Virus record (IMG/VR): IMGVR_UViG_3300025110_000019
Coordinates: 1 to 51,303 of that record
Strand: one strand, 5' to 3'
DNA: 51,303 bases
From: a virus
In this document: positions 6,001 through 48,826 of the stretch, piece after piece
Position numbering within the stretch: the stretch's first letter is position 1
How the letters are laid out: each line of letters begins with the position of its first letter
Notes under the pieces: model-generated
Databases searched by the model: none
What the model was told of the DNA's origin: nothing
Seen by the model: the letters and a program-made list of their open reading frames with translations, nothing else
Program-made: the position numbers and the translations under genes

Positions 6001-9000
6001 GGAAACGCTAAGTTTGTTTTCATCTCACCAGTTTCGTGATCAAAGTGAACCGTGTGAGCATCCCAAACACCACTACCATCTGCTAATAGCATTTCACCCA
6101 TATTTTCAGCTATACCCCACTCTAGTGGTGTTATTATAGCTGGTGCGACTATTTTATTTACGAATGTTTGATAGTATTTACTATTACTAAGTTTAGTAAA
6201 ATGTCTACCTAAATATGGTATACCCTCAATCATTCTACCGGTTCTTCCAACTAAACCTGTACCAGCTTGTGGAAGATGACTCATAGCGTGACCCATAGTG
6301 GCAGATCTTCTAGCTGTACCAACAGTTTTTTGTAAAGCCCCTAATCCTCCTAATTTTTTAAATACAGCGAGCTCTAACAGTAATGGTGCTAGTGATGTCA
6401 CGGTGTTACTAGCTAAATTAGCAATATGCCTATTATTGTTACCTCTACCATTCCATCCATCATTCGCTACGTCAGGTACATAAAAACCACCCTCTTGTAG
6501 GGTTTGTTCAAACGATGTTGCAAGTTCATCATGAGTTATTTTATAAGATCCAGCGCCTCCAAATGATTTAGCTAATCCATCTCTCCATGTTGATGTTTCA
6601 CCTGTTCTTACCACGCTATCCCAATTACCCTTCCAAGCTTCCCCAAAGTTTAACCACCCGTCTCCAAAGACCCAGTTCTCCATGTTAGACTCCATCGGGT
6701 TTATATTAGCATCGACAGCTAGCGCTAGAGTTTTGTATTTAACAAGTGCTTTATTAAACTCTGTTGCTATTCTACTACCACCAGGTAATTTTGTTAAAAA
6801 CCGTTGGTCTTCTCCTTCACTCTTATCCCAATCGGGATTGTATTTTACATCTTTATCAAACCCTTGTTCAAATGACAATCCACCCATTGTTTTGCCACCC
6901 AGCTCGAATGGGTGTCCTTGATTATACGCTTTTGTGAGTTGACTCAAGTCGTTATCTAATCCATCTTCTCTAGCGTCAAATATATCATGCAAGCCAGTTA
7001 GTATATCTTTCGTGCCATCTATAATAGCCCCTTTATTTTCATGCGCGATCCTTACCCAAGCCATTAAATCGTGATACGCTTTTATTCTTTCAGACTTCAA
7101 CCAGTTTATATCTTTACTTCCAGCCATTTCATCAACCAAACTCTGGATATCTATCTCCATCCTGTCAGCATCGTTCATCTCTCTAGTTTCCCCTGTTGCA
7201 ATACCATTTTTATCCAACTTTATCATCTCGTTAGGATCTAAAGAACTAGGAATCCACTGAACTTGTTTTATTTGTTCTGCAACCCACTCTCCATTTTCGT
7301 CTACACTATCTTCGAAACCATACCTTGTTGCCATCATACTTGCTTCAAGTTTTAATTCCTTTATCAAGTCTTGTGGGTTCTCTAAGCCAGCTTCTTCAAT
7401 GCTGATTATTTCTCCGCTATCACTTCTTGTGTGTCCACTTTTTAGTAGTTTTATTTTATCATTTATCTTTTTATATTTTTCTGGTTGTATGCCAAGAGCA
7501 CTATTCCCCAGAATACCAATAGCATCATCTAAGTCTCCATCAAACTGCTCTCCAGTTAAATCAACATCAATTAAGTTTTTTCCTATTTGCTCTTTTGATA
7601 TACCGAGAGATTCATAGTCCAATACCATTTCAGGACTACCAGCATTATTACCAGTATGTTTGTCTTTATAAAAGTCTTGCAACTCATGTCTATGATCCCA
7701 CAAATACTTATAGGATAATTTTGTCCCGTCCTTTAATTGAATGAAACCGGTCATATCAACACTCTCTTCATCCCACCCCATTAAGTCGTGGATAAATTTA
7801 CTAAACTTTTCCATTTCAGGCATAGCCGCATCTTCACCCGCTTGTTGAAGAAAATTTGATGTCTCTCTACCTTCACCAATCATATTAATCGCATTAAAAG
7901 CAGTCTCGTGTTCAGCAAAATATATTTTACCGTCTTCACTATTGTACTTTCCCTTTCTCCCGTCTTTATCTACAACAAAACCATCTTCATCTTCCACATA
8001 CTCGTTACCGTCAGCATCAGTGTGTACGAATGGTGTTCTCACCCCATCATTAACATCCCAGTCTGTGTCTACTATTTCAATAGCACTTATTGACTTATTA
8101 TCCAAGTGTTCAGTATGAGCTAAAGCTGGAACATGTGTGTTTTGTTTTGCGCCCTTGTGATGAATGGTTTTAGAATCACCCAACCAGTCGTCGTATATCT
8201 CTTGAAACACTTCTTCTTTTTTACCAGCCGTTGTTTGTATTCTTATATCCTCTAATATATCTCTAAGTATATTTTTATCTATAGCCCCACCACCACTTTT
8301 TACGTCATCAGCCCATCTAGTGTTTCCAGTTAGATGATGTATATCAGATGTCCAATCACCAATTTTAATTTTAACTGCATCTCTTCCACCAATAGCTTCT
8401 ACTACCTCAATGTTTTCTCCTTCAAATAAATCTTCAAGATAACTTTTTAATCTCTTTTCTCTTTGGCTCTCTCCACTATATTTTTCTCTTAATTCCTTAT
8501 GTCCAGTACCAAGAACCGGAGGTCGGTAGACTCCCGTACTGTAATCAAGTATGTTATCGTGCTCCGTGACTTGATACATTTCTTCAACTATATCTTCATT
8601 AGCAGTTCTATTTCCACTTTCATCTTCTGGATATAATCTATTGAGATTATCTTCACTCAATTCATTGTTGTCTAAAACATCTCCAGATTCTGGATTAGGA
8701 CTAAGTAAACCTGATACAAAATTCCAAGCTCTACCCGGGGCTGTTGCTGTTTGCTCAAGAGTGTGTGACATATCTTGTTGCCGCTTTAAATCCCCAGTCC
8801 ACCATTTTTTATTACCTATAAGTTTTTCTAGTTCCGCTTCGAATGTATCATCGTTCTCGACGTTTATTTTTAGTTCTCCGCTTTTTAATCTCTTTACATA
8901 ATCTCTACCAACGTTTTTATCATATAAAGCGTTTAAGATGTCTCTTTTTGAAACCTCTTGCATTCCACCTTCTATACCTATTTTATACTTAGGTTTAAAC

Positions 9001-9215
9001 TCAGGTGAGCTTAATTTCTTTGCGTTCTTATTTATTTTAAGGAATTGTTCATTTTCGTCTTTGGTGACATTATAGACTGAATCACCGACTTGATATTGAT
9101 ATTGCTCGCTCATAGGCGGCACTTCTTTTGCATTGGGATGCAATTCTAAAAAACCTGCTAGTTCGTGTGGCGCGACGCTGTATCTCTCACCGTCGACCAT
9201 GTATACTTTTTTCAT
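1..9215 (-). CDS. Giant multidomain virion-type protein (polyvalent protein), C-terminus cut by window edge
   Basis: An open frame of at least 3071 residues starts at ATG 9215 (MKKVYMVDGERYSV) and runs off the left edge without a stop. It is last in the leftward block, after the tail genes, as expected for an ejected internal virion protein. Visible domains: a zincin-type motif HEITH at about 1552-1556, preceded by KRIYINRDRALAVRNLG; a HAD-phosphatase motif DFDET at about 2789-2793, followed by FVLTARP and YFVDDALSNV; and a P-loop GGAGSGKG at about 2988-2995 with IVVDGTG further on, like zeta-toxin/nucleotide kinases. Long lysine/glutamate-rich helical stretches fill roughly residues 1200-2700, and there are Gly/Ala-rich hydrophobic segments around 900-1150. 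The HAD-plus-kinase order recalls polynucleotide kinase/phosphatase. I infer a protein packaged in the virion and injected with DNA (large polyvalent protein class of Iyer, Burroughs and Aravind). The domain motifs are seen; the role is inference. Confidence 0.85.
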   Translation of the reverse strand, partial: MKKVYMVDGERYSVAPHELAGFLELHPNAKEVPPMSEQYQYQVGDSVYNVTKDENEQFLKINKNAKKLSSPEFKPKYKIGIEGGMQEVSKRDILNALYDKNVGRDYVKRLKSGELKINVENDDTFEAELEKLIGNKKWWTGDLKRQQDMSHTLEQTATAPGRAWNFVSGLLSPNPESGDVLDNNELSEDNLNRLYPEDESGNRTANEDIVEEMYQVTEHDNILDYSTGVYRPPVLGTGHKELREKYSGESQREKRLKSYLEDLFEGENIEVVEAIGGRDAVKIKIGDWTSDIHHLTGNTRWADDVKSGGGAIDKNILRDILEDIRIQTTAGKKEEVFQEIYDDWLGDSKTIHHKGAKQNTHVPALAHTEHLDNKSISAIEIVDTDWDVNDGVRTPFVHTDADGNEYVEDEDGFVVDKDGRKGKYNSEDGKIYFAEHETAFNAINMIGEGRETSNFLQQAGEDAAMPEMEKFSKFIHDLMGWDEESVDMTGFIQLKDGTKLSYKYLWDHRHELQDFYKDKHTGNNAGSPEMVLDYESLGISKEQIGKNLIDVDLTGEQFDGDLDDAIGILGNSALGIQPEKYKKINDKIKLLKSGHTRSDSGEIISIEEAGLENPQDLIKELKLEASMMATRYGFEDSVDENGEWVAEQIKQVQWIPSSLDPNEMIKLDKNGIATGETREMNDADRMEIDIQSLVDEMAGSKDINWLKSERIKAYHDLMAWVRIAHENKGAIIDGTKDILTGLHDIFDAREDGLDNDLSQLTKAYNQGHPFELGGKTMGGLSFEQGFDKDVKYNPDWDKSEGEDQRFLTKLPGGSRIATEFNKALVKYKTLALAVDANINPMESNMENWVFGDGWLNFGEAWKGNWDSVVRTGETSTWRDGLAKSFGGAGSYKITHDELATSFEQTLQEGGFYVPDVANDGWNGRGNNNRHIANLASNTVTSLAPLLLELAVFKKLGGLGALQKTVGTARRSATMGHAMSHLPQAGTGLVGRTGRMIEGIPYLGRHFTKLSNSKYYQTFVNKIVAPAIITPLEWGIAENMGEMLLADGSGVWDAHTVHFDHETGEMKTNLAFPIAMGISGGLLGIGTKGFHDMFIKPRMKKQSVIGQTYLKLMDTPGAAVAGAFSKWGAQGVTASGLLYVSSVVDQINKDFQRGWWPWTDLDPFSEEGKARKEEWDSFNNKDHFIATTIAMLTIGVPKLPVKLKKAIYRDAMKFKIENAESELAAKKLEMYKRFKKNGDKSWNNHEIDLAKRLKIHKATKEIDKLKKELEKLEKEQGGNFWARGADILEGGKFENRIDKIKNEIKSKEKSIKEFEIHAKNLNRRNEVIAMKKGLKANGEYEKYLYDQYNVANGLKGGLLKLNELDRLGGFKKHEFELYLDHLGVEKNSEQGQYLSSLYEVVKSSYNFANAAKLERGSEARKVFMESKYKLAHNIARVKGLKNMQKENPLDIKVKYEIEKLEADNKLLEANIKEQYKHYEAEWAKRLDKQLAHDKKIAERLGVQFNILNDQMYQSAAEKEGFDKEGEAFISQGKRIYINRDRALAVRNLGVGLHEITHKVLWNHLKETYRVEYKGKVYDSKQLKKLENSKNEKDQKLHKELMENGDLSRRVSEDGIKIIDLVMEKLHRKDRAKIEKRIDKFYKYEMEQRLVIPEGWAEHPTKPRWLIKVDEKGEPVMEKNKKTGEKGVVEIKIDLSMYKSFRKQTADNRDIKRDPKLYYEEYLTALGDLIKNKEIDRDFITGRKLGQVIWPFAKKPFPNMYKFELNGVNSKKAAEDIFNLIETIQKEGEVGTKIEAKEIKIEGEPKQLGKVKQVAESRSDVATMLEKHGGNVRRMFDGPKSELVHDRDGHSVWARGEEFMLRKSAFGQEIMPIVESITQKLFDPIPKNIVERAIEGGNHRERRMKFQEDIISNAATIVRSEFKQEKLGKNQTIDDFISSRLWLRSMKLAEQLGIPGVEQSGKEIRREQKFGEDTFELQLGGEDAALKRLFEVNQAAKVETETSQFKRDIGAGEGTKKYTELKSAVFNTTIEAFKKTNTAIFDAKGVVRPEFVKAVEKNMVDQMYKEVKNQLMGKDKHNFLKKHGKTLWEEYIMKSLDGQNYIVATSQLTKSILKTYPNMERFGVEELKERASVKETLALQGVEKLRKTTSATAGNQVWKVKTWEQMGGQRGLEAFLLGKYKDPKTGEMIDAVDILGYKAVNRPSNYYAGKVEALARFMSKQLLADAVPQVLAENKITTATGENVNKAMEKVIQALGGVEGRNFSISEKVLHIENAETILKDIWENGNIGDIIGKNKAGENILLRQYGDKEISQYTIDKVAELWETGKIDSSKELRFKEGIEKHKDYGLIPEDIRKAIRGGKNTLKMENENVIKNYTLDLPEIAKALGKEMMGIRGMYDLIGFQKRIMDSAARKVKPEWKSYTKKQQAELKEKYGEDFKYQRNADGSFVSGKYYKLKLQVQKQIKNSKSDPVMAELVKNARLFNKQFDVFKKVEAIQNMNISIEGRTVGGKYIKGKKDYLKEIEKEIINGSEANISLHTEVIKRLTKLVESGKISEVSFINLLQAQTNVVSGFRALSRFELVDLRNGSQALFKYKKGKETIYTNNSSLAYKNGGGVNKSHPDWKDAVEFYGSEANALNKNWTTKGEHLAPSANTNIKLVEFMMEVSRNGKYKTDLQKETRIREILEGHSQLLTNKYITDIIDKGGKNSPLDFHRVKFLNQFAKGKGKIENMYSIGGKKYMEFLSGKELGKWEKEALEKSTARKDRMNTNEKIKDLNKQYSISGEKKGMSTFDFDETLIIKGKNFIKATHPVKGTVKVSSEAWPIEGERLAREGFEFDFGDFVNVKGGVDGPLLQKMKNQISKYGVDNVFVLTARPQASAYAIQQWLKSKGIDIKMKNITGLGNSSGLAKAEWMMKKFEEGYNDMYFVDDALSNVKAVKEVLNKLDVKSSVMQAKNNVKIGKYIVDVTTKQGREFVKNYETNPGKKVVFLAGGAGSGKGNVIKKLNLRDQGFEIVNQDISLEWLKKQEGVPEDMRTLTKEQRSTLGKIGHQARGIAQRKRIKFQGQGKGIVVDGT

Positions 9216-14304: not shown

Positions 14305-17300
14305 TTAACCTTCTAATTCAGGGAAGTGATCCCAAGATGAATAACTCATTGTCCCATTAACACTATGTTCTCTCCAACCGTCTATCCAAACCTCATCATT
14401 TGTTCCAGTGACAACCGTGTTATCTGGAACATTAAACCACTGACTTGTTCCGCTCCCGCTTCCATATGGCTCTAACTCTGATTGTATAGTACTAAGAACA
14501 CAACCGCTGAAAGTTCCTGAAACTACCATCTCATGGTTAACATTTAATAATTCAACTGCATCTGAATTCATCACCATAATCGACGGTTGAGCCATGTATA
14601 TGGAAGCACCCGCCATTGGTGCTCCACCATTTTCTTCAGCATCTATATATACCTTCATCTGATTACTCCAATCAGCGTTAGTTGTTACACGAACTTGTTG
14701 TATTAAAAATAGCTCTCCTTGTGGCACTACTACGGTGCTAACCTCATCACCAAAATCAAATTTAACTTGAGTGGTTGTTCCAGGCATATTGTCTAAAGGT
14801 ATCCATAAAGAACACTCGAACAAAATAAAATCGCCCTCGGACCTCGCGAATCCATCAAACATGGTTTTATGTTTTATACCACCTACTCCAGTTTGTTCTT
14901 CATCAAATGTAAATTTAGCCCATGGAGCCATTGCGTCTATAGCAGCAACATCAACCCAACCATCTGGAACTGTATCTGAACTAATAGCTGTCGCAAACCC
15001 AAGCCCTTGTGTATTAAAAGCACTTGTATCTATATTATCTCTCCAGTCTTCAGTTGTAGAACCTCCATCATCACCAACTGCTAATAGTTCGTTACCTATA
15101 ACGTGATTAAACCACTTGCCCTCTTTGTTTAGAAAATCTTTTACAGTACCAACATCTAAATCTGTATTAAATGACTCAACCCACCATCCAAATTTATCAG
15201 AAATATTTTGACCATCAAAAACACCACCCATAAAGCCATTTACAACATCTATAACAGTTCTAGCTTGTGAACCTTCGTAATTAATAGATTTAAAAGACTT
15301 AACAACATCCATTGTGTCATTGAATAAAACGTCAACTCTAGACTCGTATTGATTTCCGTAAAATGTATTACTTGGTATAGATGTGACATCAGCGTAGTGT
15401 TTCCATATGTTTCTATCCTTGACAGTTATGTAGTTACCAGTTATTGAGATACCAGTTTCAGGTATAAAAGACTTAAAACTAACCCAACCTTTACTAGCTT
15501 CGTTAAAAGATACTGTTGTGTCCGTTAACGTTGAGAAGTTTTCATTAGCTAATATATTCTCACTATAGCTTAAGGTTAAGTTGTATTCACCGTTAACAAT
15601 ATCAAATGTACCTAGTAGTGATTTAGATAACTTTAGATTATCTCTAAACCACTCTCTCATACCAACGTTTGATATTGGCGTTAAGCCATCTCCAGATAAT
15701 CTTAAAACCGCACCTCTTTGTTTATCTGTAAAATATAATCTAAATTGATCCCACGCTAGTGATTCTGGATTTTTAGATATACCGTAGTCACCAGCAAATG
15801 GAACAGCTGTCCCAAGAACTCTATTTGTGGAAACAAGTTGAGAATTACCATCAGCATTATACATAGCGTCTTTATTTGCTATCACCTTTAACACTTTGTC
15901 CTCACATAACACAACCACGTCCGTGTTTCTCGTTTTTAACGACTGTATAGATCCATAAGCTGGATTTAAATCCTTAGTTATCTTCTCAGACATATTAAAC
16001 TCATTTAGATTATTAGTGCTACTTATTGAGTTGTATAATCCAGAATATATTAATCCACTACCTCTTTCTTCATACGTATAATCTAAAAATGTTGTAGAAA
16101 CCTTAATACCATTATCTATAGTAGGCGCATTATAATCGTCTCTTATTCTATCTGACTCAACTCCATTTCCAAATGAATAGCAATTAAACCACGCTAAGTC
16201 AATTGGATACTGCCACACGTCTGGATCAAGTTGATACCAAGGAGCACTATCTGATACCTCTGGAGGAGTAAATGTTACTTCAAATTCTAATACCTGCATT
16301 ATATCATTTCCAAGCCCATCCCAAGGACCTACTCCATTTACTGAAGCCGCTTGAGCGTCTACATTACTAGTACTAAATGAGCTGTAAATAAATGAACTAA
16401 CATCGCATTGGATTAGAACATATAATCCACTCATAAATTCCATTCCACCAGCAGTTTCCTCAGACGATGCCGTAACTGAGCTGTATGTGACTTCATTATC
16501 ACTACCCGAAACGGAGGATCCAGATACTGTCCAACCTTGCGTAGGAAGCCAGCCATCAGCAGCGGCAATCGCCGCAGCGTTATTTGTTTGAGTCGGGATA
16601 ATATAAAATACATTCGTACCCATATGAATACCCCGAAGTGTTATTGGTTGAGCTCCAGTTGAAGGAACAAAGTCAATAACATTCATGTCACTATCTACCG
16701 TGACTTCCTTTACTATCTTTGACCTTGTTATCGTTCCATTGGGATGATGAAACTTAAGTATATCATCAGCTTGTAGGATACCACTAGATAATGATGCGCC
16801 CTCGGTGTTTGAAGAGAAGATCTGAATGGCTAATCCAGAGACGTTATTAACAAATGCTGTTATTGGTAAGTTGATTGGCGTGTAAACAATTTCTCCATTT
16901 ACTTCAGACACTCTATCTTCTACACTAACTTTATAAGCATCACCAACTTTAGATGATGGACCAACATATGGTATTATACTATTACTATTTAATCTTATTG
17001 GCCACTTACTAGATCCCTCGTAATATATATCTAATCCAGCGTCTTCTTTTGGTTCTGTCTCCCAACACGCTGATGATGGTACTTGCTCTTGTTCATTTAA
17101 ATCCTCTGAAGCTGGAACTGATTTTAACATCTCTATTGACATAGACGTGGAACCATTGTGAGCAACAGCAGATCTAGGATCCCATATATCTGTTTCAACA
17201 CCATATCCTCTCCAGGGTCCAGAATCACCAGACACGAAATCTTTTCTAAAAACTCCGTTTTCTATCTGTCTAAACCAAATAACAAAAGATGTTCTTTTAT

Positions 17301-20300
17301 TGTAAAAATCATCATTCTCTGGATTGATATCGTAGTTTGTTTGTTGACGGCCGTTCCACGTCATCGCTCCACCAATACCCATACCTGGATCCATCGTCAT
17401 GTTTGTGCCACTATCCACCACATCCCCCTCAATCCACTGCTCTCCGGTACCTTGGGATTGGTTAGGTATCAAACTGCCAATAAAAACACAGGCTTTTAGA
17501 GGAATTGTTTTATATACTGTTTTATATGGATCGTCTTTAAATCTAAAATAAGTACCACCAGTTGCTAGTGCGTTTCTAAGTTCATAAAAAACCCCAGGAA
17601 CATCACTACCAGAACCCAAACTAGAGAATGTTAAACCACCCAGGGTTCCATCAACAATTAGAAATCCAGGATTTTCTCCAACCCCACCAGATATGTTTGC
17701 GTCCATTAAATCGTAACCAGGATTATGTGAAGATGATATGTCTCCTTTGAATAATCCAGAGTTCTGTCTTTTACCACTATTCCAAAAATGTGTACCATAA
17801 ATTGAACCTGATGATGAGGGACCCATGGATATAGCCTGCGTTTCAGATGTTTTCGAAATACTACCAGGTTCAATCATACCGTGATGCACAGGTGTGTTAT
17901 CTATGAATACTTTAGTAGCTCCCTGTGAGTCAAATGCCATCCAAAAATCTTGTATAATACTTGAATTATCCGATTCACTATAAGGTTGATCGTTTTGCTG
18001 GTTAAACAACTCTTGCCATGTTATTCCTCCTTGATAATAAGCAGGGTAGCTGCTAGATTGAATCAGCATTAAAGATCCCTCCCCAGAAACTTCCCACCAT
18101 GTGTAGTTATAATCGCCGTTTGGTGGAGGTTGATTGTAATTATTACCATCAACACTAAGTGGGTCAACTGGTTCTAAACCGGTGTGTTGAAAACCTCTAA
18201 CCCAATTGGTTGAATCTAATCCAGTTCCATAACTACTCCATTCTGTGTTAGTATAGTTAACACCACCTAGATTACCTTGTGATTCCGCACTTGGATTAGC
18301 ATTGTTTACACTTGAATCATAGTTAAGATATGACTCGCTGTTTATATTTTCAAAAAATGGATCAGGATCCATAGATATATAAGATACATCAAATTGACCA
18401 GTTACTAAATAGTCGGTGTTAGATTGTTTTGTTATTTTACTTGTTATTATTCCATCATTTTCAATTTTAACAAAAAACCTACCGTCGAATTCGGGTTTAG
18501 TTTCTATAACATCATCTCTATATTCAAGGAACCATTCTATATAATTATATGGATCCTGAGAGTAATCAACCGTAATATTCTCTTGTGCAAACTCGTCTGC
18601 GAAATCTATTTCATCACCAAATGGTTTTGTTATAAATGTAGAAGTCGCGATATCAAAGTCAATAAAGGCCCACGTGCTACTCGACTGAATATCCGCTCCA
18701 AAATCAAATCTAGACACCTTGTGCCATTTACTTTTTTTCTCCACACCCGAAGCTTTAGCTACTACTCTAACCCACTTAGTATTACCCTTAAATGATTCCT
18801 CATCTGCGCGAAAAGGTTGATCCGGGTGGAAAAGTTCAGTCGTGTGCTTTAAACTGAATGGCGTCCCGTCTGCGGACGAGCCATTATTACCCTGCATAAG
18901 ACCCGTTGTGGGAGGATCTGTTGTCCAATCAGTATCATATACATTAATGTTAGAAATAGCATTCGTTCTACCCATGATTCTACCATCCATTTTAACATAA
19001 TCTGGCACATCATTTGATATAGATATTATTTTATAACGAGCTTCTTCTAAAACGGCATTTTGATTACCATTCTCATTTTTTAAAATTAAATAAGTATCTT
19101 CATCAACCTTGTTTCTGTCAGCAGATGGAAAAGATAACCACACGTTACCATCTTCAGCATCATACCACCTATCCATTACCAAATTATAATACTCACTAGA
19201 TGTTTCTTTAACGTAATAGCTAACGTATTCTAGTTCTAATGGTGGATCTTCACTCCACTGTTGTTGTAGTCTAAAGTAATTTTGTTTGTCACAGTAATCT
19301 TTTGGTACCACTATATCTCCAGTAACCGAAGAACCGTCACCAAACGATGAGAAGCTATAACTGGAAGACAGCACGGGTGTTTGTCTTCCATATAGATCAG
19401 AGAAGACCATACCCCATTTATAACTTCTAATAGATTTTACTGATTTATGTGGGCTTAGGGTTTGTATAGAATTAGTCATTATCTGCTGCGTAAGTCCCAC
19501 ATACTGATCAACATTGTAACCTTGAGTATAATTAGCAAAAATCAACCTATTACCAACCATCTCTTGAGCAACCGCCGTTCTTGGCACGTTATCCCAACTT
19601 CTTAATGTTTGATCTGAGGATATAACCTTATGAATTAACTCAGATGTTAAAATTATTCTACCCGTGTTAGCTCCCCAACTCTCGACAAAATTTTCCCATT
19701 CTGGGTCTATTTCTCTAGTTATTGTTTTTATAATATAAACATTCTGATTATCAGTTGTTTTAAATAATATATCTACAGCTTTAACATCCCAAGGACGAAC
19801 ATCAACGCATGGAATAAAGTCTTCTACAACTATTTCTCTAACGTTATTTGTCATACCAGTATTGTAACCAGTACTTGGAGTGTATCTAAAAGCTCCAGGT
19901 TTAAAAACTAATTCTGACCAAGGAGAAAACGTTGAATACTCTCCATCGTCATATTTATATCTATAACCTATTCTACCCAACTTTAATTCAAATAGGGGCT
20001 TTCCTTGATTTAGTGATATATTCCAATTTACGTTTTGTTGAGTTAAGTCGGGGTCAATAGATGTTAATTGCACCGTTATTGTTGTATTGTCGTTAACGTC
20101 TGTTTCAGATTGTGTTACAGTCGCTGTCACACTAACTATCCCAGCATCTCCATCACTTATGTCAGAGAATGTTAAAATATCATTTGGTAAATAATTATAC
20201 TGTCCACCTAGTGGTATTATTCTAGTATCACCTATCTCAGGATTTCCACCACCGTAAAATATATCTCCACTAACCCAACAGTTTATATTACCACTACGTC

Positions 20301-21333
20301 TAGACGTGTTCATTGTCAATGTTGGTTGATTTGTTGGAGGCTTTTTTATAACAGTTATGTGTTCTTTTTTAAGATCTTGATTTGGAACACTCTGTTCAAC
20401 TGATTGTATCGAAACGTAATCACCACTAGAAGGATTCGTAACAAATAGCTTTGTGTGTCGGTAAGGTGGCGTAAACTGCTGGTCAGCTACTGCTGATAGC
20501 TTACATCTATCTAAATTTATTTTTTTAGGCTCGTTATAGCCATCTGTCCAGAATAAAAGATTATCTATAATATTTATTCCTGTTATTTTTTTATCAATAC
20601 CAAAATTTAAAACTCTATCTTCTTCAAGCGTGTAAAAAAGAAAGGCGACGGTTGAGGCACCTACATTGCCACTAGGAATCTGCCTATCTAACGTTATGGT
20701 TGTACCACTAACTGATTTTATTTTAGGAGGATTAGTATATCCTAAAACGTTATATGATGATGTTGATTCAAATGCTGCTACCACCATCCCGACTCTTGGC
20801 ATAAAACCTGACATGCCGGTTAAGTTTATTGTTGAAAAATCTCCAGATGGAGTAGGTGAACCCGCGTCAGCATAAGTACAAGCTATAGCCCACCAATCAA
20901 CACATACTGGTATTACGTTGTCTTGTATTGGTTCAACAAATGATTTCTCTATAATGGAATCATAAAATATTCTTATACCACTACTAGCAACAATTTGCTC
21001 TTTAGAGGGTAGATTTCTACTTGTTCCAACGAAGAAATAAGCAGAGTCGTTCCTCTCATCAGCTATAGATCCAACACATTTTTGCACACCTGCAACTGGA
21101 GAATCGTCTAACGCTTCATACAAAGTGTTTGTTGTTTGGTTGACAACCCCAAACCTAGTAATCTCACCAATGTTAATATTACCCTGAAGGTTTTGAACTG
21201 TGCCTGCAGCTCCTCCATCAGTTGTTCTAACTTGTATGTTCTCCGCGTGTCTATATTCACCATTTGGCACAAGTCTCTCGTCGAGATCTTTATTCATTTT
21301 CCCACCAGTGAATGAGTGTTTAATTTCAGCCAT
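14305..21333 (-). CDS. Large tail protein (nozzle / tail-stabilisation type)
   Basis: 2342 residues, ATG at 21333. The N-terminus, with GGKMNKDLDERLVPNGEYRH (about 10-29) then AENIQVRTTDGGAAGTVQNLQGN, is the signature seen at the start of podovirus tail stabilisation or tail-tube B-like proteins, where an N-terminal beta-propeller builds the tail nozzle. It is much longer than T7 gp12 (about 800 residues), so extra beta domains must make up the C-terminal two thirds; the last residues (GWREHSVNGTMSYSSWDHFPELEG) look lectin- or sandwich-like. It follows two connector-type genes by 6 bp, the usual order connector then nozzle. Family from N-terminal pattern; C-terminal role unknown. Confidence 0.75.
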   Translation of the reverse strand: MAEIKHSFTGGKMNKDLDERLVPNGEYRHAENIQVRTTDGGAAGTVQNLQGNINIGEITRFGVVNQTTNTLYEALDDSPVAGVQKCVGSIADERNDSAYFFVGTSRNLPSKEQIVASSGIRIFYDSIIEKSFVEPIQDNVIPVCVDWWAIACTYADAGSPTPSGDFSTINLTGMSGFMPRVGMVVAAFESTSSYNVLGYTNPPKIKSVSGTTITLDRQIPSGNVGASTVAFLFYTLEEDRVLNFGIDKKITGINIIDNLLFWTDGYNEPKKINLDRCKLSAVADQQFTPPYRHTKLFVTNPSSGDYVSIQSVEQSVPNQDLKKEHITVIKKPPTNQPTLTMNTSRRSGNINCWVSGDIFYGGGNPEIGDTRIIPLGGQYNYLPNDILTFSDISDGDAGIVSVTATVTQSETDVNDNTTITVQLTSIDPDLTQQNVNWNISLNQGKPLFELKLGRIGYRYKYDDGEYSTFSPWSELVFKPGAFRYTPSTGYNTGMTNNVREIVVEDFIPCVDVRPWDVKAVDILFKTTDNQNVYIIKTITREIDPEWENFVESWGANTGRIILTSELIHKVISSDQTLRSWDNVPRTAVAQEMVGNRLIFANYTQGYNVDQYVGLTQQIMTNSIQTLSPHKSVKSIRSYKWGMVFSDLYGRQTPVLSSSYSFSSFGDGSSVTGDIVVPKDYCDKQNYFRLQQQWSEDPPLELEYVSYYVKETSSEYYNLVMDRWYDAEDGNVWLSFPSADRNKVDEDTYLILKNENGNQNAVLEEARYKIISISNDVPDYVKMDGRIMGRTNAISNINVYDTDWTTDPPTTGLMQGNNGSSADGTPFSLKHTTELFHPDQPFRADEESFKGNTKWVRVVAKASGVEKKSKWHKVSRFDFGADIQSSSTWAFIDFDIATSTFITKPFGDEIDFADEFAQENITVDYSQDPYNYIEWFLEYRDDVIETKPEFDGRFFVKIENDGIITSKITKQSNTDYLVTGQFDVSYISMDPDPFFENINSESYLNYDSSVNNANPSAESQGNLGGVNYTNTEWSSYGTGLDSTNWVRGFQHTGLEPVDPLSVDGNNYNQPPPNGDYNYTWWEVSGEGSLMLIQSSSYPAYYQGGITWQELFNQQNDQPYSESDNSSIIQDFWMAFDSQGATKVFIDNTPVHHGMIEPGSISKTSETQAISMGPSSSGSIYGTHFWNSGKRQNSGLFKGDISSSHNPGYDLMDANISGGVGENPGFLIVDGTLGGLTFSSLGSGSDVPGVFYELRNALATGGTYFRFKDDPYKTVYKTIPLKACVFIGSLIPNQSQGTGEQWIEGDVVDSGTNMTMDPGMGIGGAMTWNGRQQTNYDINPENDDFYNKRTSFVIWFRQIENGVFRKDFVSGDSGPWRGYGVETDIWDPRSAVAHNGSTSMSIEMLKSVPASEDLNEQEQVPSSACWETEPKEDAGLDIYYEGSSKWPIRLNSNSIIPYVGPSSKVGDAYKVSVEDRVSEVNGEIVYTPINLPITAFVNNVSGLAIQIFSSNTEGASLSSGILQADDILKFHHPNGTITRSKIVKEVTVDSDMNVIDFVPSTGAQPITLRGIHMGTNVFYIIPTQTNNAAAIAAADGWLPTQGWTVSGSSVSGSDNEVTYSSVTASSEETAGGMEFMSGLYVLIQCDVSSFIYSSFSTSNVDAQAASVNGVGPWDGLGNDIMQVLEFEVTFTPPEVSDSAPWYQLDPDVWQYPIDLAWFNCYSFGNGVESDRIRDDYNAPTIDNGIKVSTTFLDYTYEERGSGLIYSGLYNSISSTNNLNEFNMSEKITKDLNPAYGSIQSLKTRNTDVVVLCEDKVLKVIANKDAMYNADGNSQLVSTNRVLGTAVPFAGDYGISKNPESLAWDQFRLYFTDKQRGAVLRLSGDGLTPISNVGMREWFRDNLKLSKSLLGTFDIVNGEYNLTLSYSENILANENFSTLTDTTVSFNEASKGWVSFKSFIPETGISITGNYITVKDRNIWKHYADVTSIPSNTFYGNQYESRVDVLFNDTMDVVKSFKSINYEGSQARTVIDVVNGFMGGVFDGQNISDKFGWWVESFNTDLDVGTVKDFLNKEGKWFNHVIGNELLAVGDDGGSTTEDWRDNIDTSAFNTQGLGFATAISSDTVPDGWVDVAAIDAMAPWAKFTFDEEQTGVGGIKHKTMFDGFARSEGDFILFECSLWIPLDNMPGTTTQVKFDFGDEVSTVVVPQGELFLIQQVRVTTNADWSNQMKVYIDAEENGGAPMAGASIYMAQPSIMVMNSDAVELLNVNHEMVVSGTFSGCVLSTIQSELEPYGSGSGTSQWFNVPDNTVVTGTNDEVWIDGWREHSVNGTMSYSSWDHFPELEG

Positions 21334-37512: not shown

Positions 37513-37639
37513 TATCCCCTTATTTAAATTTTGAATATCATTAACTCACATTCTAATTACGATTACTATTTGATTATAATACTATAATAACTTAATAAAA
37601 TAAAATACTATGATTGCTTCTTTAATAATATATACTATG

Positions 37640-37672
37640 TACAAAGTAATTACGAAGTATACCAGATAATAA
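37640..37672 (+). promoter_or_regulatory. Rightward 33-nt element, copy 1
   Basis: Block 1 TACAAAGTAATTACGA (13 of 16 to the consensus CACAAACTAAATACGA), 8 bases, block 2 AGATAATAA. It is the first copy after the divergent hub and lies 45 bp before the first rightward start codon at 37718. Block 2 looks like a -10 box. Predicted phage-type promoter. Confidence 0.7.
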
Positions 37673-37717
37673 ATATAAATAATAACTTAATAGGTTGTGG
37701 CTCACCACAAATATAAT

Positions 37718-37958: not shown

Positions 37959-37991
37959 CACGATGTGAATACGATGCTGAATAGATAATAT
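37959..37991 (+). promoter_or_regulatory. Rightward 33-nt element, copy 2
   Basis: Block 1 CACGATGTGAATACGA (13 of 16), 8 bases, block 2 AGATAATAT. It fills the gap between 37951 and the start codon at 38008, which is 17 bases beyond block 2. Confidence 0.65.
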
Positions 37992-38007
37992 AATAAAGAT
38001 TAATAAT

Positions 38008-38373: not shown

Positions 38374-38406
38374 CACAAACTAAATACGATGTAGTAAAGA
38401 TAATAA
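38374..38406 (+). promoter_or_regulatory. Rightward 33-nt element, copy 3
   Basis: Block 1 CACAAACTAAATACGA (consensus), 8 bases, block 2 AGATAATAA. Start codon 23 bases beyond block 2 (38429). Confidence 0.75.
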
Positions 38407-38428
38407 TAATGTAATAAAAATTAATAAA

Positions 38429-38600: not shown

Positions 38601-38633
38601 CACAAACTAAATACGAAGACAAAAAGATAATAA
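38601..38633 (+). promoter_or_regulatory. Rightward 33-nt element, copy 4
   Basis: Block 1 CACAAACTAAATACGA (identical to copy 3), 8 bases, block 2 AGATAATAA. The start codon is 43 bases further (38676). Confidence 0.75.
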
Positions 38634-38675
38634 ATGTAGATAAAATAAATTAATAACTAATAAAAATGAATAATT

Positions 38676-40257: not shown

Positions 40258-40331
40258 GGACGAGTAGCTTAACTGGATAAAGCAACGCCCTTCTAAGGCG
40301 TAGAGTGTGAGTTCGACTCTCACCTCGTTCA
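40258..40331 (+). tRNA. tRNA-Arg (anticodon TCT)
   Basis: A canonical 74-nt cloverleaf: acceptor GGACGAG/CTCGTTC, D-arm GCTT/AAGC with GG in the loop, anticodon stem ACGCC/GGCGT with loop CTTCTAA (anticodon TCT), T-arm GTGAG-TTCGACT-CTCAC, discriminator A. CCA is not encoded. It reads AGA codons, which are frequent in this AT-rich genome, so it probably supplements the host. A copy of the 33-nt element begins at its 3' end. Confidence 0.93.
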
Positions 40332-40362
40332 CAAATTAAATACGATAATAGAAAGATAATAA
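40330..40362 (+). promoter_or_regulatory. Rightward 33-nt element, copy 5
   Basis: Block 1 CACAAATTAAATACGA, 8 bases, block 2 AGATAATAA. Its first two bases are the last two of tRNA-Arg, and the next start codon (40367) is only 4 bases after block 2, which would predict a nearly leaderless transcript if block 2 is a -10 box. Confidence 0.75.
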
Positions 40363-40366
40363 TAAT

Positions 40367-40492
40367 ATGAAAATACGAACAAAAGATATAAGAAAACGCG
40401 ACCCATTTTGGAAACTCGCATCTTTTAAGCGTGTTCATAAGAGTAAGAAAACATATAATAGAAAGAAAAAACATAAAAATAGCAATGGATAA
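40367..40492 (+). CDS. Small basic protein (41 residues)
   Basis: ATG at 40367: MKIRTKDIRKRDPFWKLASF then KRVHKSKKTYNRKKKHKNSN and a final G. Almost half its residues are Lys or Arg, so it probably binds nucleic acid. Its stop overlaps the next start (ATGGATAA). Confidence 0.6.
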   Translation: MKIRTKDIRKRDPFWKLASFKRVHKSKKTYNRKKKHKNSNG

Positions 40493-42153: not shown

Positions 42154-42416
42154 TAGAAAAATTAAAAGAACTAGAACAAGAAGCAATGGATTACATTGAC
42201 CCAGAAGTATATGAGTCAATAGTATGTAATGTAATGGATGAAGGTGAACAATGGATTTACCAAGCGGGATATATAGATGGCTTACAAACAGCAATAAATA
42301 TGTTGGCTGAAGAATCAGAAACAATGAGTTATAGTGTAGAAATGGAAGATATATTTCCTGATGATGATGAAGAAGAAGATATAGCTCAAGAATACCCAGA
42401 TATATATGACAACTAA
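42150..42416 (+). CDS. Acidic small protein
   Basis: 88 residues, ATG at 42150. Helical N-terminus (EKLKELEQEAMDYIDPEVYE), middle EQWIYQAGYIDGLQTAINML, and a strongly acidic tail (DDDEEEDIAQEYPDIYDN). A DNA-mimic or inhibitor role is conceivable given the charge; no direct evidence. Confidence 0.6.
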   Translation: MIEKLKELEQEAMDYIDPEVYESIVCNVMDEGEQWIYQAGYIDGLQTAINMLAEESETMSYSVEMEDIFPDDDEEEDIAQEYPDIYDN

Positions 42417-42627
42417 TAAGATCATAATAGTAGCATTAGGAGTATCTATATGGTACTCTGCTACTTTAAATAAAAAGTACAACAACATATCTAAAAAACT
42501 AGATATGATTGTGGAAAATAGTGAAAAAGGAAAAATAGATTCCTTGCAATTTGAAATAATGAATTTAGGATATAAACTAGATTCTATGATATTAGAACAT
42601 GATTATGGATTTAGTTTCACAAACTGA
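42406..42627 (+). CDS. Small membrane-anchored coiled-coil protein
   Basis: 73 residues, ATG at 42406. Residues 5-20 (KIIIVALGVSIWYSAT) form a membrane anchor; the rest is a helical, coiled-coil-like stretch (YNNISKKLDMIVENSEKGKI, then FEIMNLGYKLDSMILE). The layout resembles Rz-like spanins or small anchors, but it lies in the early block away from the holin candidate. Confidence 0.55.
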   Translation: MTTNKIIIVALGVSIWYSATLNKKYNNISKKLDMIVENSEKGKIDSLQFEIMNLGYKLDSMILEHDYGFSFTN

Positions 42628-42650
42628 ATACGATTTGAGAATGATAATAA
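42618..42650 (+). promoter_or_regulatory. Rightward 33-nt element, copy 6
   Basis: Block 1 CACAAACTGAATACGA (one change, T to G side of the Y/R pair), 8 bases, block 2 TGATAATAA. It begins within the last codons of the preceding gene and the next start (42657) is 7 bases past block 2. Confidence 0.75.
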
Positions 42651-42656
42651 TAATAT

Positions 42657-42872
42657 ATGAATAAAAAATGCAAATGTAATAAAATAATACCAGTAGAACG
42701 TCTGCGACTTGGCTTTAGAGTCTGCGTGGATTGCTCAACAGTATCAAGATACGGTTGTGCTCCAGTTATAAACCATAAAACTGGCAACACTATACAGATA
42801 ATGTCTAGTGAAGATGCGGAGAAAGTTTACAAACTATTTCGCAGGCGTGGCTACGGTACAATGTTAAGATAA
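42657..42872 (+). CDS. DksA/TraR-type zinc-finger protein
   Basis: 71 residues, ATG at 42657. Pattern CKCNKIIPVERLRLGFRVCV followed by DCSTVSRYG matches the C4 zinc finger of small DksA/TraR proteins (C-x-C ... C-x2-C), followed by NHKTGNTIQIMSSEDAEKVY and a basic end RRRGYGTMLR. Phage TraR-like proteins bind the RNA polymerase secondary channel; here the finger is clear but the coiled-coil acidic tip is missing, so that effect is inference. Confidence 0.7.
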   Translation: MNKKCKCNKIIPVERLRLGFRVCVDCSTVSRYGCAPVINHKTGNTIQIMSSEDAEKVYKLFRRRGYGTMLR

Positions 42873-43273: not shown

Positions 43274-43349
43274 TCAGTTATAAACACGGAATATCAAGGT
43301 CGCTGGCCACACAAAGTAGCCCAGTAGTAAAACGTACCTTGTATTCCAT

Positions 43350-43413
43350 GGAGTGTCCGGCTTAAATGCAAACCACTAATAGGGTCTGGACGGCGAAACC
43401 ACCCTAGCACTCC
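43350..43413 (+). repeat. 64-nt direct repeat with pseudoknot potential, copy A
   Basis: 62 of 64 bases identical to 44037-44100. GGAGTG (43350-43355) pairs with CACTCC (43408-43413); TAGGGT (43380-43385) with ACCCTA (43401-43406); CCGG (43357-43360) with CTGG (43386-43389). The last two interleave and form an H-type pseudoknot inside a closing stem. It follows the 43288-43347 stem after the bases AT. Confidence 0.8.
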
Positions 43414-44033: not shown

Positions 44034-44036
44034 AAT

Positions 44037-44100
44037 GGAGTGTCCGGCTTAAATGCAAACCACTAATAGGGTCTGGACGGCGAAAACACCCTAACACTCC
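44037..44100 (+). repeat. 64-nt direct repeat with pseudoknot potential, copy B
   Basis: Differs from copy A only at 44086 (C to A, predicted unpaired) and 44094 (G to A), the latter turning a predicted G-U pair at the end of the closing stem into A-U. The closing stem is thus kept. Copy 7 of the 33-nt element starts 4 bases later. Confidence 0.8.
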
Positions 44101-44103
44101 TAT

Positions 44104-44136
44104 CACAAATTAAATACGAATAAAGTAAGATAATAA
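44104..44136 (+). promoter_or_regulatory. Rightward 33-nt element, copy 7
   Basis: Block 1 CACAAATTAAATACGA (same as copy 5), 8 bases, block 2 AGATAATAA. It lies directly after the large RNA and the next start codon (44141) is 5 bases past block 2. Confidence 0.75.
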
Positions 44137-44140
44137 ATAT

Positions 44141-44371
44141 ATGAAGACAATATATGAAAGACTCAACCCAGATATTCTGGCGAGTATAAAAAAAGATAAA
44201 CAAAAATATCCTTATACAACAAGAGCTTTAGTTTTAAAGCTTAAATCCACCGAATATTGGGACGATTTAACTGTAAGTGATATTAGAGCAGTATTAATAC
44301 ACTCTCATGTAAGTATGATCGACATTCAACAAGATATACTATGGGGTGATAAATTTTTAACAAATGAGTAA
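44141..44371 (+). CDS. Small hypothetical protein
   Basis: 76 residues, ATG at 44141. MKTIYERLNPDILASIKKDK, helical, with ISDIRAVLIHSHVSMID-like hydrophobic helix near 46-60. Overlaps the next gene by 8 bp. Function unknown. Confidence 0.6.
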   Translation: MKTIYERLNPDILASIKKDKQKYPYTTRALVLKLKSTEYWDDLTVSDIRAVLIHSHVSMIDIQQDILWGDKFLTNE

Positions 44372-45129: not shown

Positions 45130-45162
45130 CACAAACTAAATACGAACACTTATGGATAATAT
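45130..45162 (+). promoter_or_regulatory. Rightward 33-nt element, copy 8 (overlaps a start codon)
   Basis: Block 1 CACAAACTAAATACGA, 8 bases, block 2 GGATAATAT. Block 2 lies inside the first codons of the gene annotated from ATG 45152. The element still keeps its spacing, so if it starts transcription the product must begin at a later codon (TTG 45185 or ATG 45227). Confidence 0.65.
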
Positions 45163-45436
45163 AAAAGATGAAAATTTACAACGATTGGGTAAATATATAG
45201 CTCAAGAGCTTATTGATCAAGCGTTGATGACGGAACGTGGGGATTGGATAGAAACCAACATTAAAGACCACGCTATAGGAGAATTAGCACGATGTATGAC
45301 TCTTCAAAACCTATACCTAGACCGTGAAGAGTATGAAAAATGTGCTATAATGAAGTTAAGAATACAAGATATAAAGTCTATGTTAAAAATAGATGGAGAT
45401 CTTGACATAAATTTAGAAGAAGATGATGAAGATTAA
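45152..45436 (+). CDS. Small acidic protein with EYEKCA helix
   Basis: 94 residues from ATG 45152 (MDNIKDENLQRLGKYIAQEL). The start is uncertain because element copy 8 runs through it. A helical part EELARC-like, LYLDREEYEKCAIMKLRIQD, resembles the 39539 protein; the C-terminus is acidic (INLEEDDED). It overlaps the ligase start by 14 bp. Confidence 0.6.
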   Translation: MDNIKDENLQRLGKYIAQELIDQALMTERGDWIETNIKDHAIGELARCMTLQNLYLDREEYEKCAIMKLRIQDIKSMLKIDGDLDINLEEDDED

Positions 45437-46891: not shown

Positions 46892-46991
46892 GAAACAAAA
46901 CTCAATTAACAAATATAAATATAATAAAGATGATTCTAAAAGAATCATTATAGGAACATTAAAACCAAACTGTGACAAAAGCCTTAAATAA
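46863..46991 (+). CDS. Possible small basic protein (42 residues)
   Basis: ATG at 46863, overlapping the previous gene by 29 bp: MRKKLILRIEKQNSINKYKY then NKDDSKRIIIGTLKPNCDKS. Basic and plausible, but the overlap and a perfect hairpin inside it (TGATTCT/AGAATCA, 46931-46947) leave doubt. Confidence 0.4.
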   Translation: MRKKLILRIEKQNSINKYKYNKDDSKRIIIGTLKPNCDKSLK

Positions 46992-47017
46992 TACTATTAG
47001 TAATAGGCTAATGTCAC
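46972..47017 (+). repeat. Hairpin GTGACA/TGTCAC with inner AGCCT/AGGCT
   Basis: Outer 6-bp stem and inner 5-bp stem (46980-46984 with 47005-47009), separated by AA on each side, topped by an AT-rich loop. It lies between the small-gene cluster and the helix-turn-helix gene. Possible terminator, processing site or operator; same TGACA/TGTCA ends as 37375-37418 and 38221-38265. Confidence 0.5.
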
Positions 47018-47029
47018 AAACAACACCAC

Positions 47030-47644
47030 ATGGATAGAAGATTTAAGTATTTATGGAATAAACAGGTAGTGTATAGACGCTATCCTATAACCGATGTGCC
47101 CGATGAGGAAACCGAACATTATATGTTTTATAAATCAGGCACATATGAATGTTATGATTTATTTAGAAGTAAAGCTAAGATCACAACATGGAAATCATTT
47201 TATTGGCACATGATGGTATTATGGCATCTAAATCCTGAATGGGAAGATGCTGACGCTATGGAAGTAGCAACATATTTAGCGTATAAACCAAATGGTTTCA
47301 CCACGTTTAATATGAATAAGTGGAATTTATCTAGACTAGTATATGAAGTGTCTGTATTGGATCTAGATAAACCTCCACGAAATAAACTTAGAAAAATTAT
47401 ATTTAAACCAGATTGTGGATTAGATAAGACAGAGAAATTACGAATAGTAGGTAAATTAATAGGTAGATTAAGAGGTGTGCAAAAGGAAGATTTATATGAA
47501 GCTATGATACAAACTAATTACGAGGGTGATAAGATAATAATATCAAAGCTTGCGAAAATGTTAAATGTGACACCAAGAACAATACATCGTCATATGTGTG
47601 ACGAATTAAAGAAAGAAAAAGAAATATTAAATGAACAAATATAG
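47030..47644 (+). CDS. Helix-turn-helix protein, candidate regulator
   Basis: 204 residues, ATG at 47030. The C-terminus (about 166-200) fits a helix-turn-helix: KIIISKLAKMLNVTPRTIHR then HMCDELKKEK. The N-terminal part (YYR-type aromatic, KITTWKSFYWHMMVLWHLNP) is not recognised. It may control transcription or initiate replication. Element copy 9 lies inside its 3' part, and its stop overlaps the nucleotidase start by 14 bp. Confidence 0.7.
   Translation: MDRRFKYLWNKQVVYRRYPITDVPDEETEHYMFYKSGTYECYDLFRSKAKITTWKSFYWHMMVLWHLNPEWEDADAMEVATYLAYKPNGFTTFNMNKWNLSRLVYEVSVLDLDKPPRNKLRKIIFKPDCGLDKTEKLRIVGKLIGRLRGVQKEDLYEAMIQTNYEGDKIIISKLAKMLNVTPRTIHRHMCDELKKEKEILNEQI
47508..47540 (+). promoter_or_regulatory. 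Rightward 33-nt element, copy 9 (inside a coding gene)
   Basis: Block 1 TACAAACTAATTACGA (14 of 16), 8 bases, block 2 AGATAATAA, within codons for the HTH domain of the 47030 gene. It lies 91 bp before the nucleotidase start and ahead of the sigma factor gene, so it may be an internal promoter for that pair. Confidence 0.65.
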
Positions 47645-48074
47645 AATATTTATAGACATGGACGGAGTTATTGCTGATTTTGAAAAAGGTCAAGAGTGTC
47701 AAGGCTATAAACTTAGTAAGAGACCAGATCTTTTACTAGATTACAGAACACTACCAGTAATAGATGGTGCTATAGAAGCTGTAGCCAAGCTAAATGCAGA
47801 CCACGAGGTTTTTATAGCATCAACTCCTCCTTGGACTAGACCTGATGTATGGGGTCATAAACGTGAATGGATTGGAGAACATTTTCCATATTTAAAACGT
47901 AGAATCATACTAACACATAGAAAAGATTTATTAATCGGAGACATTTTAATTGATGATTCCAGGTATAGAGGACAACCAGACTTTCAAGGTGAATGGTTTT
48001 GGTTTAACAAAAACTGGAATAATAAGAATTGGGAAGCATGCATAAAATGGATCTATAAAGAATATAAGAAATGA
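47631..48074 (+). CDS. 5'(3')-deoxyribonucleotidase (HAD family)
   Basis: 147 residues, ATG at 47631. HAD motif I is FIDMDGVIADFE (about 7-18), motif II-like VFIASTPPW, and a late DILIDDSR (about 105-112). This matches the NT5C-type 5'(3')-deoxyribonucleotidase family, common in phages, where it trims dNMPs and balances pools or recycles host nucleotides. Its gene overlaps both neighbours (14 and 4 bp), so it is made together with the sigma factor. Confidence 0.88.
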   Translation: MNKYRIFIDMDGVIADFEKGQECQGYKLSKRPDLLLDYRTLPVIDGAIEAVAKLNADHEVFIASTPPWTRPDVWGHKREWIGEHFPYLKRRIILTHRKDLLIGDILIDDSRYRGQPDFQGEWFWFNKNWNNKNWEACIKWIYKEYKK

Positions 48075-48826
48075 AGAAATATCACGTACAAAACTATGTA
48101 AGGTGGAAAATGGATATGAAAGCTTCTATAGCTAGATTACCAAATTTTCCTTACGAAGATTTAAGTAGAGATCAATTGATAACTAAATTTTTACCATTAG
48201 TAGAAAGTTTATCAATGAAATTCTCCACAGCTCAATCAGCCAGTGGAGTTATGAGTATAATGGATTTAATACAAGAAGGCAATTACGGTTTATGCGCTGG
48301 AGTCGATAGAATAGATTGGGATACAATTCTAGCGTCTAAAGATCAAGAAAAAACATTAAAATCATTTTTAGCAAAAAGAATTAAAGGAGCTATAAGAAGA
48401 GGAATCGACACTAATAGAGGTAGCATGAGAATACCGGAGCATAAACTCAACGAGATACGTAAAGATTTTGGTGAAGACCGCAAAGCAGTAGAGTTGTTTT
48501 TTAATTCAGTGTTTACAAGTTTAGATGCTGGTACACCAGAACAACAAAACGCTGCTTATAATATACCTGAAGTAAAAGAATATAATAAAGAATTATTATC
48601 AGCTTATGTTAGAAGCTTAATGTTGCAATATTTAAATCATAGAGAGTTTCAAGTGTTAAGATTATCTTATGGACTTGATTGTGAAAAACACTCAGCTAAA
48701 GAAATTGCCGAAATATTAGGTATAAAAGGTAGTAGTTCTTATGTGCGAATTTCACAGCTGAAAAAGCAAGCTATAACTAAATTAATAAACAACGTTAAAC
48801 ACTCGCAAGTAGTTGACTACCTGTAA
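48071..48826 (+). CDS. Phage-encoded sigma-70-family factor
   Basis: 251 residues, ATG at 48071, overlapping the nucleotidase stop by ATGA. Region 2: LITKFLPLVESLSMKFSTAQ, SIMDLIQEGNYGLCAGVDRI (core binding) and FLAKRIKGAIRRGIDTNRGS (DNA melting and -10 contact), then RIPEHKLNEIRK at the region 2/3 border. Region 4: LNHREFQVLRLSYGLDCEKH and SAKEIAEILGIKGSSSYVRI with the HTH that reads -35 DNA. It would redirect host RNA polymerase to phage promoters. Which motif it reads, the 33-nt element or RTGTAAYTA, is not known. Confidence 0.88.
   Translation: MKKYHVQNYVRWKMDMKASIARLPNFPYEDLSRDQLITKFLPLVESLSMKFSTAQSASGVMSIMDLIQEGNYGLCAGVDRIDWDTILASKDQEKTLKSFLAKRIKGAIRRGIDTNRGSMRIPEHKLNEIRKDFGEDRKAVELFFNSVFTSLDAGTPEQQNAAYNIPEVKEYNKELLSAYVRSLMLQYLNHREFQVLRLSYGLDCEKHSAKEIAEILGIKGSSSYVRISQLKKQAITKLINNVKHSQVVDYL

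Follow-up and report, generated by a model that had tools for sequence, protein, structure and literature searches.

Introduction

Phage-encoded sigma factors with their own middle and late promoters have been described for Bacillus phage SPO1 (gp28 and gp34; PMC4496689), and T4 middle promoters combine a MotA box with a -10 element (PMC4496689). In the Bacteroidota, promoters of the primary sigma factor carry TTTG at -33 and TAnnTTTG at -7, and 5' UTRs under 10 nt account for 3.7% in B. thetaiotaomicron (PMC7366714).

We analysed a 51,303-base IMG/VR virus record (the window), which contains copies of a bipartite element with the consensus YACAAAnTAAATACGA-N9-GATAATA. As in SPO1, a phage product would replace the host sigma factor and steer the host core RNA polymerase to one promoter class; however, the host group here is the Bacteroidota, the promoter has an unrelated sequence with a wide 16-bp block in place of the -35 hexamer, many messages would be leaderless, and one copy is intragenic, ahead of the sigma gene itself. 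With T4 middle promoters the element shares a -10 hexamer and a longer phage-specific box upstream of it, but length and place of the box differ, and a phage sigma factor is present here, whereas T4 middle transcription depends on AsiA and MotA with the host sigma70. The primary sigma promoters of the Bacteroidota are comparable in the presumed host group and in being AT-rich, but the element lacks TAnnTTTG, and short 5' UTRs, rare in B. thetaiotaomicron, would be common at it. A phage sigma factor with its own promoters is a known general mechanism. The literature searched yielded nothing usable on promoters of this phage group; as far as could be searched, neither its promoter class nor the leaderless geometry nor the intragenic copy has been described.

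Results

Element copies in the window

The window terminase is akin to those of MW202828 (62%), Elemovirus, Maribacter phage Panino and Cellulophaga phages, and the host is therefore presumably a Bacteroidota bacterium. Elemovirus, Pachyviridae (phi18:3), Panino and MW202828 have terminases 39-62% identical to that of the window and a related virion gene block, but differ in having neither a sigma factor of this family nor a copy of the element. Two large proteins are encoded on the - strand. The first is an open-ended giant protein (3-9215, >3071 aa) that carries a HAD-like DxDxT motif close to the C-terminal part and whose orthologue in the relative G009 had no Pfam or PHROG match. For the second (14305-21333, 2342 aa), Pfam returned the crAss muzzle C-terminal domain below threshold (E 1.3e-5), a hint that the phage may be akin to crAss-like phages.

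Nine 32-nt copies of the element, every one on the + strand, lie between 37640 and 47539, in a block of small genes that ends with genes for a helix-turn-helix (HTH) protein, a nucleotidase, a sigma factor, an Erf-like annealing protein and an exonuclease:

37547-37578, + strand: weak tenth copy (GATTATA)
37640-37671, + strand: copy 1, predicted +1 at 37677
37959-37990, + strand: copy 2, predicted +1 at 37996
38374-38405, + strand: copy 3, predicted +1 at 38411
38601-38632, + strand: copy 4, predicted +1 at 38638
40330-40361, + strand: copy 5, directly 3' of tRNA-Arg, predicted +1 at 40367, the A of the next ATG (leaderless)
42618-42649, + strand: copy 6, predicted +1 at 42655, ATG at 42657
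44104-44135, + strand: copy 7, predicted +1 at 44141, the A of the next ATG (leaderless)
45130-45161, + strand: copy 8, holding the conserved start codon of ORF 45152-45436
47508-47539, + strand: copy 9, with upstream box 47508-47523 (about -37 to -22), spacer 47524-47532 and the -10-like GATAATA 47533-47539

Copy 9 had been described in an initial annotation as the sole copy within an upstream gene. It is the only one deep inside a gene, but copies 6 and 8 also touch coding sequence, copy 6 overlapping the final 10 nt of ORF 42406-42627. Copy 8 covers the conserved ATG of ORF 45152-45436, at element position 23, together with its first codons (M-D-N-I), and the same overlap was found in 15 copies. 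As copy 8 contains its start, this ORF would not be translatable from copy 8's own transcript, and its message would come from further upstream; the first complete gene downstream of copy 8 is that of DNA ligase (45423). About 800 nt of little coding content hold a pair of 66-nt repeats (43348-43413 and 44035-44100, 97% identical), for which no Rfam match was found and which folded no better than shuffles.

The genes around copy 9 are arranged as follows:

46971-47018, + strand: conserved inverted repeat / RNA hairpin, just 5' of the HTH start
47030-47644, + strand: HTH gene, 204 aa, C-terminal residues ~148-204 modelled as a helix-turn-helix domain
47545, + strand: predicted transcription start of copy 9, an A, third base of codon TCA 172
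47558-47560, + strand: in-frame ATG (M177), 13 nt after the predicted start
47631-48074, + strand: 5' nucleotidase (NT5C / phrog_2643-like), 147 aa, overlapping the HTH stop
48071-48826, + strand: phage sigma70-family factor, 251 aa, regions 2 and 4 (Pfam/PHROG, PDB profile search, model)

A start-site signature in the element family

From related phage contigs 395 distinct copies were collected, of which 245 remained after clustering (65% identity, variable bases). In the search, TACGA and GATAATA were fixed and the upstream half was weakly filtered, so that the bases further downstream, including +1, were unconstrained. Position 38, 6 nt past GATAATA, was a purine in 393/395 distinct and 244/245 clustered copies, and in 202/204 once those that have an ATG at position 36 or 38 had been dropped. 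Position 37 (-1) was a pyrimidine in 84% of the copies, and an ATG begins exactly at position 38 in 90 of them, including copies 5 and 7 of the window. The pattern was confined to one strand in 39 of the 40 element-bearing records, the remaining record having a single opposite-strand match.

Sigma70-type promoters typically have, about 7 nt past the -10 hexamer, a purine at which RNA is initiated, in most cases preceded by a pyrimidine. The GATAAT element has this arrangement of bases, and taking GATAAT as the -10 hexamer makes position 38 the +1. The expected picture would be a sigma70-type promoter whose 16-bp block forms a recognition region from -37 to -22 and whose RNA starts at the purine 6 nt past GATAATA, yielding many leaderless mRNAs. 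At the distance of a -35 element (16-18 nt from the -10) there are CAAACT-like bases, but they belong to an uninterrupted conserved stretch that extends down to -22. The TTTG of the Bacteroidota housekeeping promoter (TAnnTTTG at -7) is absent from the element. The nine or so copies in the window would represent a phage-specific promoter class serving the rightward gene block of a Bacteroidota phage.

Candidate readers of the element

The putative sigma factor was matched by phrog_351 (8e-21) and, above the cut-off, by Sigma70_r4 (1.8e-7), with Sigma70_r2 (4.6e-4) below the cut-off, and a PDB profile search led to SigA (3.2e-9). Comparison of its AlphaFold model with E. coli sigma70 (VIA-align) gave Z 13.4 and an rmsd of 19.8 over 175 aa, the high rmsd being due to a different placement of the two domains; domain 2 alone aligned with Z 13.0 and an rmsd of 2.4 over 98 aa. 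From the profiles of regions 2 and 4 and the modelled fold of domains 2 and 4, the protein was assigned to the sigma70 family. In E. coli sigma70, Q437 and T440 meet base -12, and W433 and W434 are the melting tryptophans. Their counterparts in the phage protein are G and R, and K and R, respectively, invariant in the alignment, and we infer that these substitutions fit the unusual G at -12 of the element.

The sigma factor is encoded by 34/40 element-bearing records, including every record of at least 59 kb, and the six without it are fragments of 48-56 kb. Conversely, 4/4 sigma-less relatives are free of the element, namely elemoE, Panino and phi18:3, which are complete, and MW202828, complete except for the giant-gene end. 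Element and sigma factor are thus jointly present or jointly absent, as counted across related phages that are not phylogenetically independent. In one record (G019, the record of L047) the sigma gene is split over two frames with internal stops (55767-56520), representing a pseudogene or an assembly error; 11 element copies are kept in this record.

This co-occurrence makes the feedback proposed in the initial annotation plausible, and the sigma factor likely reads its own promoter, copy 9. However, the HTH gene adjoins the sigma gene in relatives, co-occurs with it and is likewise missing from the reference phages, and the HTH protein might read the wide upstream box. Structural comparison of the HTH protein gave generic HTH matches only (Z below 7), a sequence search returned no match worth naming, and no relatives of the sigma and HTH genes were found in named phages. 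As an alternative, the promoter could depend on a host sigma factor, or on the host RNA polymerase together with the HTH protein, with the phage sigma factor serving late genes. Beside the company of the HTH gene, this would agree with the sigma gene coming last in the block driven by the element, as expected of an early product, and with an upstream box (-37 to -22) wider than the usual -35 hexamer. However, the element lacks the TAnnTTTG of the Bacteroidota primary sigma factor (PMC7366714), the phage protein carries both region 2 and region 4, and its gene comes and goes with the element; we therefore consider a reader other than the phage sigma factor rather unlikely, while ranking it first among the alternatives.

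Copy 9 as coding DNA

Copy 9, with the sequence TACAAACTAATTACGA-GGGTGATAA-GATAATA(AT), occupies codons 160-171 in the 3' third of the HTH gene. The initial annotation had reported it as hidden in a coding gene ahead of the nucleotidase and the sigma factor, with 14/16 and 9/9 element positions kept, and both statements were confirmed on the sequence. Copies deep inside an ORF of at least 80 aa are found in 7/395 cases, five of which are this HTH site, while the ORFs of the other two look doubtful. Copy 9 scored 32.5 bits with a weight matrix built solely from 56 intergenic copies in relatives, the window and all copy-9 orthologues being left out. The best non-copy position in the 51 kb reached 5.7 bits on the - strand and stayed below 0 on the + strand, and the top score in 40 Markov-shuffled windows was 14.5. 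When the HTH protein was kept and its codons were drawn anew according to the codon usage of the phage, the score of copy 9 was reached in 0.7% of the draws (P=0.007). A chance coding match was ruled out from the weight-matrix score and the recoding. In addition, copy 9 bears the -1/+1 pyrimidine/purine pair (C47544, A47545).

Synonymous divergence, expressed as the share of differing codons among codon pairs for the same residue, was determined for seven nucleotidase-positive genomes with the same gene order:

HTH codons 1-159: 0.374
copy 9, HTH codons 160-171: 0.088
HTH codons 172-181, ten codons beginning at the predicted start: 0.153
HTH codons 182-204: 0.203
nucleotidase: 0.317
sigma factor: 0.358

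Out of 193 twelve-codon windows of the HTH gene, five were as low as the element window, all of them overlapping it. Synonymous sites of the element codons are therefore unusually conserved among relatives, as had been predicted for a DNA signal at this site. Most synonymous changes within the element affect the N9 spacer or the variable position 7/8, and the codons AAG ATA ATA ATA TCA, from GATAATA to +1, are unchanged in 9/9 sequences with the allele described below.

Residues ~153-204 of the window HTH protein form an allele distinct from that of L126-L128, three relatives with a close sigma factor. The allele has Q161, mostly Y164, and I170, where the rest of the family has mostly D, mostly D, and T, respectively. 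T170 is present in 40/40 relatives without the allele, and its exchange for I allows GATAATA to be spelled in frame. Residue 177 is M in 9/9 sequences with the allele; among the 40 others it is M in 2 and L in 27. The gene is a mosaic, since window residues 1-152 match L126-L128 (mostly 74-90% nt) and residues 153-204 match L215, with the match to L206 covering 153-187; an N-terminal tree with the allele as a single clade gave an AU p=0.055.

Since codons 172-181 are also fairly conserved, recent shared ancestry of the segment accounts for some of the trough, and some of the low divergence may reflect its recent exchange. Taken further, the HTH C-terminal allele and the nucleotidase could have been exchanged recently as one coding segment, the element-like DNA being a by-product of the protein sequence, as the mosaic gene would suggest and as TACGA...GATAATA, which arises in 3% of recodings given the protein, would allow. 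However, the nucleotidase as the would-be co-mover is itself diverged (71.5% mean amino-acid identity, in addition to its synonymous changes), HTH residues 182-204 are diverged as well, the trough lies at the element, and the -1/+1 pair is kept, all of which renders a mere by-product improbable. From the diverged nucleotidase and HTH tail we argue instead that copy 9 is selected as DNA within the reading frame. An internal promoter, as postulated in the initial annotation, is thus well supported by the +1 purine signature of the family, the synonymous trough and T170I.

A function of the repeat as an RNA-level or recombination signal would fit copies located between exchangeable small genes and copy 9 near the left edge of the exchanged segment, but is very unlikely given the strict strand bias, the -1/+1 signature and the ATGs exactly at +1. 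Least probable of all is a promoter for a T7-like single-subunit polymerase. TACGA-N9-G does resemble TAATACGACTCACTATAGGG in a spacing that we take to be the same as in the T7 promoter, but the start signature is at position 38 and not at the G of GATAATA (position 26), PF00940 matched in 0/17 records (as in the control genomes, which also gave none), and the large ORFs of G009, a terminally redundant relative, matched no RNAP family.

Distribution of copy 9 and the upstream hairpin

The product of the first gene behind copy 9 matched the NT5C deoxyribonucleotidase profile PF06941 with 51.7 bits (cut-off 24.8), and its gene was found only in the lineage with this HTH allele. It lies between the HTH and sigma genes in seven genomes (the window, L204, L130/L213, L129/L214, L131/L055, L132/L210 and L215), while two sequences (L206 and L207/L209) have the allele without it. 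All other relatives have neither copy 9 nor nucleotidase, including L126-L128, though their HTH N-terminal part is close to that of the window. TACGA is intact in 6/7 nucleotidase-positive genomes, with CACGA in L204, and is mutated in both nucleotidase-less allele sequences (AACGA, CACGA); copy 9 of L215 has a change at position 8. AACGA and CACGA are also found at intergenic copies, so that such mutated copies may be weak rather than dead. Copy 9 is clade-restricted, and its association with the nucleotidase is suggestive; the tree contains no more than two to three independent changes, which do not suffice for a test. A perfect link is contradicted by L204, which combines the nucleotidase with a mutated TACGA core.

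Because copy 9 and the nucleotidase are missing from L126 (sigma factor 89% identical), L127 and L128, the sigma factor does not generally need copy 9. In relatives without copy 9 the nearest element is ~1.5-2 kb before the HTH gene, and their sigma gene must therefore be transcribed from further upstream. The separate timing of the sigma factor suggested in the initial annotation is thus not a conserved trait; it may apply to the lineage with copy 9, where the gene served first is that of the nucleotidase.

The other signal ahead of the HTH, nucleotidase and sigma genes is the hairpin at 46971-47018 (fold z -4.96; no Rfam family), an inverted repeat TGTGACA-nn-AGCC ... AGTAAyAGGCTAATGTCACA kept in >40 relatives. 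In many of them the HTH start codon apparently lies inside its right arm. The repeat is a candidate operator or translational switch for the HTH and sigma genes. No host-type promoter was identified in the window ahead of the HTH gene, 7 exact matches across the window being not convincingly above chance.

Discussion

From the start-site signature, the constraint on synonymous sites and the joint occurrence of element and sigma factor, copy 9 is probably a phage-specific sigma70-type promoter for a second transcript with nucleotidase and sigma factor, read by core RNA polymerase and the phage sigma factor. In this one lineage, the promoter inside the HTH gene would start the transcript at A47545, and the holoenzyme would most likely consist of the host core enzyme and the phage sigma factor. 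With the sigma gene as the final one of the unit, copy 9 would then be a promoter under direct positive feedback. The overlap of the HTH and nucleotidase frames together with the in-frame M177 suggests that a 28-aa peptide of the HTH C-terminus could be made from this transcript and that ribosomes may couple from it into the nucleotidase, with translation of the sigma factor following that of the nucleotidase by overlap. Copy 9 would hence add a shorter, possibly self-amplifying transcript that skips the hairpin.

With the element, a promoter class is defined by sequence, including a predicted start base, in a large, mostly uncultured group of marine phages for which no account of a transcription programme was found. 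The pair of sigma factor and promoter would be directly testable in Flavobacterium and might serve there as an orthogonal expression tool. Copy 9 would be a clear natural example of how a regulatory signal can be written into a coding sequence in spite of protein conservation. For this large, uncultured group of marine Bacteroidota phages we tentatively propose, as a reading that may well prove too broad, that promoters read by the phage sigma factor drive early and middle genes, largely from leaderless messages, and that the intragenic copy enabled by T170I, at the cost of an otherwise invariant residue in a conserved DNA-binding gene, would give a self-amplifying nucleotidase-sigma transcript that bypasses the hairpin.
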